The translations under genes were made by a program, and so were the position numbers. DNA of 64,000 bases from Chloroflexota bacterium (lineage in GTDB: Bacteria > Chloroflexota > Anaerolineae > Aggregatilineales > Phototrophicaceae), in the NCBI GenBank assembly GCA_026706455.1, contig JAPOYS010000105.1, positions 1 through 64,000 of the forward strand. The letters run 5' to 3'. The stretch's first letter is position 1. Every line of letters starts with the position of its first letter. The notes under the pieces are model-generated. The model was not told the origin of the DNA and made no database searches. It saw only the letters and a program-made list of their open reading frames with translations. Shown in pieces: positions 30,201-33,994 of the stretch.

Positions 30201-30638
30201 ATGGCACAAGAACCGCGTTTCGACCCGATGAGAGAAATCCAGAATCTGGGCGAACAGATAACGAAGCAAATCGAAAAAGGCATTCGCACCGTGACGAGCG
30301 GCAGCGAAAGCCTGCACTTGGATATGTACGAGGCTGACGGCATCGTCACCATCAGTTCGCAACCGATCGATGGCTTGGTCAAGGAAAGCATTGAAATCAG
30401 CCTTGAAAGCAATGTGCTCACAATTTCAGTGCGGACTGAACCGGAGCCCACCCCGACGTCGGCGCGCTACCTGCTACAAGAGCGCCGCTTTGGACCGCTG
30501 TCGCGAGACCTTGAATTGTCGATTCCGGTCAAGGGCCAGGAAGCGCGCGCCAAAGTGGACGGCGGGAATCGGCTAATTATCACGCTGCCTGTGGACGACA
30601 GCATATACGGCAACATCACCGTCACGCCAGTGGAATAG
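30201..30638 (+). CDS. small Hsp20/alpha-crystallin-like protein
   Basis: LDMYEADGIVTISSQPIDGLVKESIEISLESNVLTISVRTEP...YLLQERRFGPLSRDLELSIPV...KVDGGNRLIITLPV alpha-crystallin-like pattern. Confidence 0.75.
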   Translation: MAQEPRFDPMREIQNLGEQITKQIEKGIRTVTSGSESLHLDMYEADGIVTISSQPIDGLVKESIEISLESNVLTISVRTEPEPTPTSARYLLQERRFGPLSRDLELSIPVKGQEARAKVDGGNRLIITLPVDDSIYGNITVTPVE

Positions 30639-30685: not shown

Positions 30686-31729
30686 TTAGTCGCCTTGCAG
30701 TAGAGTTGCCCGCGCCGATTGCGCTTCAAAGTCAAAATCACGCAACATGCTCGCTTTGGCGTCAGCGTCCATGCGGGAGACTTCAATCGCGCGGCGCGCC
30801 AGTTGAATCAACTCATCCGCATGGATTCCGCACTCTTCGCGCGCCAGAATGTACTCGTCAACCAGCGTGCTGCAGTAAAGCGATGGCTTGTCACAGGAGA
30901 GCGCCACTGGCAACCCCTTTTCCAGTAGGGGCTTGAGTGGAAAGTCGGCGGCATTCTTGACCAAGCCCGAGTTCTGGGCCTGCGTCACCGATACCACCAT
31001 CTGCGTCTGCGCTTCGACAACTTGATTGAGCAGGGCTTCATCGTCGAGTATGCGCCAAGCGTCAACGAGCCGACTCGGTTGCAACTCGTCGATGGTTTCT
31101 CGAATGCCAGCGGCGCTCGGGCTGCTGCCGACGCATACAGCCGTGAATAGATCCTTCTTGCGCGCGGTGTCAAAAGCGCGTTTGAACTGCCCCACTGGCT
31201 GAGCGTCTTCCGGACCCACTAGTCCCATGGCAATGACATTGCCCTGGCGCGCGGCGCTGCCCGTCGTCCAACGAGCGACATCATCGCCGACGCGCGGATT
31301 GTCCCGCGGGATGCACAAGATCCAGGCCATGTTTACATTCCAGGCGCGCTGGGCGCGATCGCGTCCGTCGTTGAGCGCGTCGAGAAAGGCATCGAAATTC
31401 ATGCGCCCGCTGCCGACAAAGTCCGAGGGCACAACCGCGACTTCGGCGTAGCGCACATTCTGCTTGGATATGGCGACGCCGATATCATAAACGACGAGCG
31501 CCAGGTCCTCGGGATACATGACCCAGGCGCCGGCTACGGCTGCGATCTCATCCAGGCGATCTGGTTCCGGCTCGTCCAACATATCCACCCAGCGCGCAAA
31601 GTCGTCCATTTGCCCGGGTATGCCGTTTTGATTGGCGATTAGCAGCAAGCTGTCTTTGCGCAATGCGCCTGTCAACTGAAGGTTTAACTCAACTTTCGGC
31701 AGCGCGGTTATGAAGTCTCTCAGTGTCAT
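30686..31729 (-). CDS. adenosine deaminase-fold protein lacking canonical catalytic residues (putative pseudoenzyme)
   Basis: FITALPKVELNLQLTGALRKDSLL aligns with ADA PKxELHxHLxG; LFTAVCVGSSPSAAGIRETIDELQPSRLVDAWRILDD with the HAGE...RIGHG block; LPVALSCDKPSLY with the LNSDDPxxF block. Confidence 0.85.
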   Translation of the reverse strand: MTLRDFITALPKVELNLQLTGALRKDSLLLIANQNGIPGQMDDFARWVDMLDEPEPDRLDEIAAVAGAWVMYPEDLALVVYDIGVAISKQNVRYAEVAVVPSDFVGSGRMNFDAFLDALNDGRDRAQRAWNVNMAWILCIPRDNPRVGDDVARWTTGSAARQGNVIAMGLVGPEDAQPVGQFKRAFDTARKKDLFTAVCVGSSPSAAGIRETIDELQPSRLVDAWRILDDEALLNQVVEAQTQMVVSVTQAQNSGLVKNAADFPLKPLLEKGLPVALSCDKPSLYCSTLVDEYILAREECGIHADELIQLARRAIEVSRMDADAKASMLRDFDFEAQSARATLLQGD

Positions 31730-31823: not shown

Positions 31824-33482
31824 TCAGTTGTCGTCCGCTCTCATGGCCGATCGCAGCGCAAGGCGACCAAGCTCATCGCGGTATTCGGCCGATGCCTGGA
31901 CGAAGGCGGCGAAGAGCGGGTGCGGTCGATTGGGCCGGCTCAAAAACTCCGGATGGAATTGGCAGCCGAGCATGAAGGGATGATCCTGCAATTCGGCGAT
32001 CTCTACCAGGATACCGTCCGGGCTCAAGCCGCTAAAGCAGACGCCGCTGGTCATGAACGCAGCGCGATAGTCGTTGTTGAACTCATAGCGATGCCGATGG
32101 CGTTCCATAATCCTGCTGGCGCCGTATGCGCGCGCCGCCAGCGAGTTCGGCGTTAGTTTGCAAGGGTATTCGCCCAAGCGCATTGTTCCGCCCATATCGG
32201 TAATTGCGCGCTGCTCCGCCATCAGATCAATCACGGGATGCGGGCTGCTTACATCAAACTCGGTGCTGTTGGCGTCATCCAGCCGCAGCACATTGCGCGC
32301 ATATTCAATGCACATGACCTGCATACCTAAGCATAAGCCCAGATATGGAACTTTGTTCTCGCGCGCGTGCTTGACGGCTGCGATTTTGCCTTCAATCCCA
32401 CGATAGCCAAAGCCACTCGGCACGATAATCCCATCGAGCGTCTCAAGCTCGTCAAGCCGCTTGCCTTTTTCCAACTCGCCGGAGTGGATCCAACAGATTT
32501 CGACATCCTGGCTCTGTAAGACAGCAGCGTGCGTGATCGACTCTTTGACCGACATATAGGCATCATGCAGTTCGACATATTTGCCGACGATCCCGATGCG
32601 CAGCTTATCCGTGACTGAGCGACAGCGGCGGACAATTCCTTCCCACTCGCTTAGATCCGGCGCCGCGGCTTCAAGCCTGAAGCGCTTGAGAATGAAATCG
32701 CCCAGACCCGTTTCCTCGATCATTAGTGGCACGGCGTATATGTTGTCGGCTGTTTGCAGGGGGATGACGGCGTCCTCGTCAACATCGCAAAAGAGGGCGA
32801 TCTTGCTAATGATATCGTCGTTAATTGGATGATCGGTGCGCGCGATGATCACGTTTGGCTGGATGCCAATGCCGCGCAATTCACGAACGCTGTGCTGAGT
32901 CGGCTTGGTCTTTATTTCGTCGGTGGCGCCGATATGCGGCAAAAAGGTAACGTGAACATAAAGCGCATCGCGCCGTTTTAGCTCGGTACGCAATTGGCGA
33001 AGCGCCTCCAGGAAGGGCAGGCTTTCGATGTCCCCGGCCGTCCCGCCAACCTCAACGATGACAACATCGGCGTCCGTCTGCCGGCCCACAAGTCTTATAC
33101 AGCGCTTGATTTCGTTCGTGATATGCGGCACGACTTGAATGGTGCCGCCGAGGTAATCGCCTTTGCGTTCTTTCTCGAGCACCGTCAGATACACTTGGCC
33201 CGCCGTGATATTAGACATGCGGCTTACGTTCTCATCGACGAAGCGTTCGTAGTGGCCCAGATCCAGGTCCGTCTCGGCGCCGTCAGCCGTTACAAAGACT
33301 TCGCCATGCTGGTAGGGGCTCATCGTACCGGGATCAACATTCAAATAGGGGTCGAGCTTCTGTATGGCGACTTTCAAGCCGCGCGCTTTCAGAATCCGCC
33401 CAATTGCAGCGACCGTCAGACCTTTGCCGACGGAGCTCACGACGCCGCCAGTACAGAAGATGTATTTGGGTTTAGTCGTCAT
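31824..33482 (-). CDS. pyrG: CTP synthase
   Basis: KYIFCTGGVVSSVGKGLTVAAIGRILKARGLKVAIQKLDPYLNVDPGTMSPYQHGEVFVTADGAETDLDLGHYERF; GLCLGMQ glutaminase motif. Confidence 0.98.
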   Translation of the reverse strand: MTTKPKYIFCTGGVVSSVGKGLTVAAIGRILKARGLKVAIQKLDPYLNVDPGTMSPYQHGEVFVTADGAETDLDLGHYERFVDENVSRMSNITAGQVYLTVLEKERKGDYLGGTIQVVPHITNEIKRCIRLVGRQTDADVVIVEVGGTAGDIESLPFLEALRQLRTELKRRDALYVHVTFLPHIGATDEIKTKPTQHSVRELRGIGIQPNVIIARTDHPINDDIISKIALFCDVDEDAVIPLQTADNIYAVPLMIEETGLGDFILKRFRLEAAAPDLSEWEGIVRRCRSVTDKLRIGIVGKYVELHDAYMSVKESITHAAVLQSQDVEICWIHSGELEKGKRLDELETLDGIIVPSGFGYRGIEGKIAAVKHARENKVPYLGLCLGMQVMCIEYARNVLRLDDANSTEFDVSSPHPVIDLMAEQRAITDMGGTMRLGEYPCKLTPNSLAARAYGASRIMERHRHRYEFNNDYRAAFMTSGVCFSGLSPDGILVEIAELQDHPFMLGCQFHPEFLSRPNRPHPLFAAFVQASAEYRDELGRLALRSAMRADDN

Positions 33483-33562: not shown

Positions 33563-33994
33563 TCAAAGCAGTCGCTTCAAGTCGGCAACGGCTTCCCGCA
33601 TATCCAAATGCACCAGCCCCAGCTTTGCCTCGTCAGCCGCTAGAGTCGTCAGCAGCGCATAATCGTCAATCGCCATCAACAGGACGAAGCCGGCCTCTCC
33701 CTTGACGTAGACTTGGTCAAGACGCCCTCGATCCAAGTCCGCGGCAATGCGCTCGCCTAGCGCCAACATCGCGGCCGACATCGCCTCCAGCACGTCTTCC
33801 CGCAAGGTCGCGGGCATGGACGCTGCGATAAGCAATCCTTCGATGCTGATGACGGCGGCCGCCTCCACACCTGGAGCGCGCTCGGTCAGGGCGCCCAGAC
33901 GCTCATCAATTCGCTGAGATTTGGTCGCATTCAAGCGACACCTCGCTTGCAGCCGAGCGCCAAGGCATGACCCATTCCAGCATTGCGCGACCAC
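33563..33994 (-). CDS. roadblock/LC7-domain protein
   Basis: VEAAAVISIEGLLIAASMPATLREDVLEAMSAAMLALGERIAADLDRGRLDQVYVKGEAGFVLLMAIDDYALLTTLA typical roadblock pattern. Confidence 0.8.
   Translation of the reverse strand: MVAQCWNGSCLGARLQARCRLNATKSQRIDERLGALTERAPGVEAAAVISIEGLLIAASMPATLREDVLEAMSAAMLALGERIAADLDRGRLDQVYVKGEAGFVLLMAIDDYALLTTLAADEAKLGLVHLDMREAVADLKRLL

Follow-up and report, generated by a model that had tools for sequence, protein, structure and literature searches.

The adenosine/adenine deaminases of P. aeruginosa (3ou8), Arthrobacter (3rys) and Burkholderia (4gxw) are bacterial members of the adenosine deaminase (ADA) family that carry the zinc site and the catalytic residues. 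The catalytic positions are given here in mouse ADA numbering (H15, H17, G184, H214, E217, H238, D295 and D296). H238, D295 and D296 are important for mouse ADA, and the PDB holds mutants of these residues (1uio, 1uip, 1fkw and 1fkx). G184 contacts the purine in ADA. Elsewhere in the amidohydrolase superfamily there are members that are not enzymes. The CRMP/dihydropyrimidinase-like proteins of animals are non-enzymatic paralogues that have lost the metal ligands and form tetramers with cytoskeletal partners. The pDHO of Pseudomonas ATCase is an inactive barrel of the superfamily without zinc ligands, and the activity of P. aeruginosa ATCase needs it (PMC7053772). For the ADA family itself, our full-text literature searches found no report of a pseudoenzyme.

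Here we describe psADA, an ADA-fold protein without the catalytic residues, encoded directly behind the CTP synthase gene pyrG in a 64,000-nucleotide stretch of Chloroflexota DNA (the window). It resembles pDHO in being a probably inactive amidohydrolase-superfamily barrel tied to a pyrimidine enzyme (PMC7053772). It differs in that pDHO belongs to the DHOase family and has a partner demonstrated by biochemistry, whereas the candidate partner of psADA is named from linkage alone. By analogy, pDHO is perhaps a precedent for psADA as a non-catalytic partner of a pyrimidine enzyme. With the CRMP/dihydropyrimidinase-like proteins psADA shares the loss of metal ligands and, probably, the non-enzymatic character, but family and organisms are different.

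The Gene and Its Protein

The features of the locus are collected in Table 1. The psADA frame is intact, as the sequence-only reading had stated; it runs for 347 codons from the ATG at 31729 to the stop codon at 30686-30688. Pfam A_deaminase (PF00962) matches the protein with 156.1 bits against a gathering cut-off of 27 and covers model positions 1-325 of 330. The TIGR01430 equivalog for adenosine deaminase (EC 3.5.4.4) gives 148.6 bits, which is under its cut-off of 216.55. A structure model built from eight input sequences has a pLDDT of 91.0 and is an ADA-type (beta/alpha)8 barrel. Its best matches in the PDB all belong to the ADA family, with query TM scores of 0.81-0.89 among the top matches. 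Structure prediction, one of the checks proposed with the sequence-only reading, thus bears out the assignment, and both the full-length profile match and the barrel place psADA in the A_deaminase superfamily. The three bacterial deaminases named above share the fold over that TM range at about 20-23% identity, and unlike psADA they have the zinc site and catalytic residues. In the model the ADA fold is retained and the metal site is gone.

Table 1. Features of the psADA locus in the window (all positions refer to the 64,000-nucleotide stretch).
Feature	Position	Strand	Basis or note
psADA (ADA-fold pseudoenzyme, 347 aa)	30686..31729	-	ATG start, ORF and translation, Pfam PF00962, predicted ADA fold
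Former HxH zinc motif, now N16-L17-Q18, beta strand 1	31676..31684	-	codons 16-18
Former HAGE block, now C199-V-G-S202	31121..31135	-	codons 199-203
Former RIGHG block, now R220-L-V-D223-A-W225; H238 to D	31055..31072	-	H238 never H in 81 psADAs
Former SDDP block, now S278-C-D280-K281-P282; D296 to K (M in most relatives)	30884..30898	-	
Gained conserved stripe 1: D121, R125, R128, W130 (helix 112-130); R146, D149, D150, R153 (helix 145-156)	31271..31369	-	
Gained conserved stripe 2: Q181, R184, K191, K192 (helix 179-191 and its end)	31154..31189	-	
pyrG, CTP synthase, 552 aa from ATG, directly upstream of psADA	31824..33482	-	NCBIfam NF003792, 820 bits
Roadblock/LC7-domain gene, upstream of pyrG	33563..33994	-	Pfam Robl_LC7, 52 bits; conserved order
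Hsp20-like gene, convergent to psADA; adjoins pyrG where psADA is deleted	30201..30638	+	loci L135-L139

The Former Active Site

The four catalytic blocks read PKVELNLQL, AVCVGSS, RLVDAWRI and LSCDKPS in the window psADA. The sequence-only reading had listed NLQ for HxH, CVGS for HAGE, VDA for GHG and CDKP for SDDP, and all four hold. H15, H17, H214, E217, H238 and D296 are replaced by N, Q, C, S, D and K, respectively, so that the residues for hydrolytic deamination are lost, again as had been claimed. The residue sets expected of EC 3.5.4.4 are broken: the zinc ligands H15/H17/H214/D295 are N/Q/C/D, and E217/H238/D296 are S/D/K. The only catalytic-position residues left are D295 (D280 in psADA) and G184 (G172 in psADA). 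Equivalent metal ligands elsewhere in the protein would have overturned that claim, but alternative histidine ligands can be rejected since the whole protein has a single histidine, H303.

Comparable losses recur across the clade, so the substitutions are not peculiar to this genome. Of 82 carriers, we read the active site of 81 psADAs in full, in one alignment with 37 other ADAs. H238 is never histidine (aspartate in 41 of the 81) and D296 is never aspartate (methionine in 57). H15 is retained in 15, H17 in 12, H214 in 13 and E217 in 13, and the H214 column holds 13 different residues. Of the two HxH positions, the first is N in 47/81 copies and the second is Q in 52/81. All four zinc ligands occur together in only four psADAs (L033, L041, L042 and L155), and these four have D or E for H238 and M for D296. 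G184 is present in 80 of the 81. All 37 other ADAs show H, H, H, E, H, D, D at the seven positions. The sequence-only reading had asked whether a clade shares the signature NxQ/CVGS/DAW/SCDKP. The loss is common to all 81 proteins but the exact signature is not; only N-x-Q is near-fixed, and that at the level of the genus (N 100%, Q 90%), where T20 is also nearly fixed.

Since H238 and D296 are lost in every copy and the zinc ligands patchily, the second-shell residues were probably lost first and the metal later. From the distribution of the retained ligands, the metal was probably lost more than once. Most psADA species, including that of the window, probably neither bind zinc in this protein nor deaminate with it.

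Descent and Gene Neighborhood

The family belongs to the Anaerolineae, and psADA is carried by 82 of its 98 genomes. The psADA scores are at least 386 bits, and any other ADA scores at most 234. Within the genus, psADA is found in 28 of the 33 other genomes at 50-68% identity, and its nearest named relative is on Anaerolineae contig L134. Outside the family, the best class-wide matches reach at most 278 bits; the 20 that were fetched keep the catalytic set (one with D295N), and none has pyrG within the stretch fetched. A sample of the phylum gave nothing nearer to psADA. In a maximum-likelihood tree the first 48 psADAs form a group of their own, separated from every canonical ADA with an SH-aLRT support of 100%.

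The gene order Roadblock/LC7-pyrG-(ps)ADA is conserved. At each of the 80 loci of the family that could be read, psADA lies directly behind pyrG on the same strand, which upholds the co-occurrence with pyrG raised in the sequence-only reading. The gap in the window is about 94 nt. A simple scan of this intergenic region, which is weak evidence, found no promoter or terminator.

In two sister families of the same order (L050-L056), the gene that immediately follows pyrG encodes an ADA whose catalytic residues are complete, and the two genes often touch (median gap 2 nt, range -11 to 15 nt). Like psADA, these ADA genes lie on the pyrG strand; the proteins are 28-34% identical to psADA and share with it the lineage markers N35, G84, G122 and W136. 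Unlike psADA, they keep HxH, HAGE, GHG and SDDP and are without the W69/W130/R125/R153/R184 set. They are the positional orthologs of psADA. Because the canonical gene occupies this place in the sister families, it is probable that an ADA already inside the pyrG operon became a pseudoenzyme in one family and has been inherited vertically there.

In a sub-clade of five species of the genus (L135-L139), psADA has been cleanly deleted, and pyrG then adjoins the Hsp20-like gene. The PyrGs of these species form one clade, which points to a single loss. The whole course is thus visible: an ortholog at the same place behind pyrG that looks active, intermediates in which the zinc ligands persist without H238 and D296, fully dead forms and a clean deletion. 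The psADA series is a testable natural series for the change from enzyme to non-enzyme.

Selection and Gained Constraint

By the Nei-Gojobori method, 46 close psADA pairs give a median dN/dS of 0.152 with an upper quartile of 0.204. The corresponding medians are 0.048 for pyrG, 0.081 for pheA and 0.143 for asd. The amino acid sequence changes about three times faster than that of PyrG. Despite this faster change than its neighbors, psADA is clearly under purifying selection. Loss shared by a clade of 81 intact copies, together with that selection, is what marks a pseudoenzyme.

The constraint has moved. Comparing 61 non-redundant psADAs with 51 canonical ADAs, we find W69, Y81 and W130 invariant, and R184, R153, R125, D149, R128, D121, R146 and K191 near-invariant, in the psADAs; all are variable in the canonical ADAs. 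The gained residues fall on, beside or at the ends of model helices 56-68, 73-88, 112-130, 145-156 and 179-191. In the last three their spacing is approximately i, i+3/4, i+7, and they form stripes on consecutive outer helices. In psADAs the columns of the old active site are now unremarkable or rank with the most variable ones (H214 3.02 bits, at the 90th percentile; E217 2.48; H238 2.21). Judging from the helix periodicity the stripe may be surface-exposed, with internal salt bridges as a possible alternative. Stripes of conserved residues on consecutive outer helices of the model suggest a new protein interface.

Possible Functions

We consider it probable that psADA is a maintained non-catalytic protein that acts through its protein surface. 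The general idea of a retained non-catalytic role goes back to the sequence-only reading, and the clade-wide loss, the intact frames and a dN/dS of about 0.15 support it. An ADA gene in the pyrG operon would have lost H238 and D296 and then, in nearly all copies, the zinc ligands. Function would have shifted from the old active site to the outside of the barrel, onto the charged and aromatic helix stripe. The protein would be made together with CTP synthase and would act as a scaffold for binding other proteins or as a regulatory subunit. Regulation of an active ADA paralogue is unlikely, since 27 of the 29 carriers in the genus have no ADA-family gene besides psADA, so that an active ADA partner is not needed.

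PyrG is the likeliest partner, but this is a guess from linkage that we put forward as a tentative possibility. The regulatory role next to CTP synthase that the sequence-only reading had offered is likewise possible. The more specific proposal, in which an ADA killed inside the pyrG operon gave rise to psADA as a subunit dedicated to regulating or scaffolding bacterial CTP synthase, is doubtful. If it is true, an enzyme of purine salvage has come to control the synthesis of pyrimidine nucleotides. The psADA series hints at a further partner of CTP synthase. Of what would be expected of a pDHO-like subunit, genetic linkage to the putative partner is seen (80/80 with pyrG), but co-evolution is not: a search for PyrG residues specific to psADA-carrying genomes found none. 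PyrG A26S, which occurs in the psADA-less sub-clade, was rejected as a marker because A is found in other genomes that lack psADA. Evolutionary distances of psADA correlate with those of PyrG (partial r 0.44) only modestly better than with those of another neighbor, MoxR (0.29), and shared ancestry confounds the comparison. Since PyrG is otherwise normal where psADA has been deleted, psADA is not essential, and the psADA-less species suggest that PyrG can do without it.

It is unlikely that psADA is instead a nucleoside or nucleotide sensor, in which the dead pocket binds a purine ligand and reports to CTP synthase. The near-universal G184, the retained fold and pyrG linkage, and the near-fixation of N16, Q18 and T20 within the genus would fit such a sensor. 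However, G184 may be structural, and the other pocket positions vary widely, as the H214, E217 and H238 columns show. Nucleoside binding, which the sequence-only reading had offered as an example, is not supported for the same reason: most positions of the old pocket vary freely in the clade, and a pocket that is not conserved makes binding there less likely.

We regard as quite unlikely a structural stabilizer or self-oligomer that lacks a specific role in metabolism, in which the charged stripe mends the stability lost with the metal. Opposite charges at i, i+3/4 and i+7 on neighboring helices could indeed pair within the monomer, but stability alone gives no reason for the gene to be retained family-wide under this degree of purifying selection.

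The four psADAs that keep their zinc ligands could mean that the substrate or reaction changed before the metal was lost, and hence that psADA performs new chemistry, either as an altered enzyme or as one that works without metal. Against this, the clade shows no new conserved polar set where the catalytic residues used to be, and H303 is the sole histidine of the window psADA; we judge new chemistry to be very unlikely.

A decaying gene or an assembly error is scarcely credible, even with the deletion in the five-species sub-clade and the faster evolution of psADA than of adjoining genes, given open frames throughout the 82 of 98 family genomes, 12 columns that stay invariant across 31 diverse psADAs and the low dN/dS; chance or an alignment slip is likewise rejected, because the loss runs through 81 relatives and the 37 other ADAs are intact in the same alignment.

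Other Observations

The assemblies of the five psADA-less species are smaller (3.2-3.7 Mb) and hold no PF00962 gene whatever. The Roadblock/LC7 gene precedes pyrG in most loci of the order, including those with a canonical ADA. The operon-like position of the canonical ADA behind pyrG in the sister families is a purine-pyrimidine gene pairing of which we found no description. Broken canonical ADAs also exist: G066:C1:126966-127851 consists of fragments with an in-frame TGA, and the ADA of L088 has a frame break at the SDDP block. In three IMG/VR viral contigs (L181, L182 and L184), an IMP dehydrogenase gene overlaps an ADA gene with intact catalytic motifs, forming a phage purine module.
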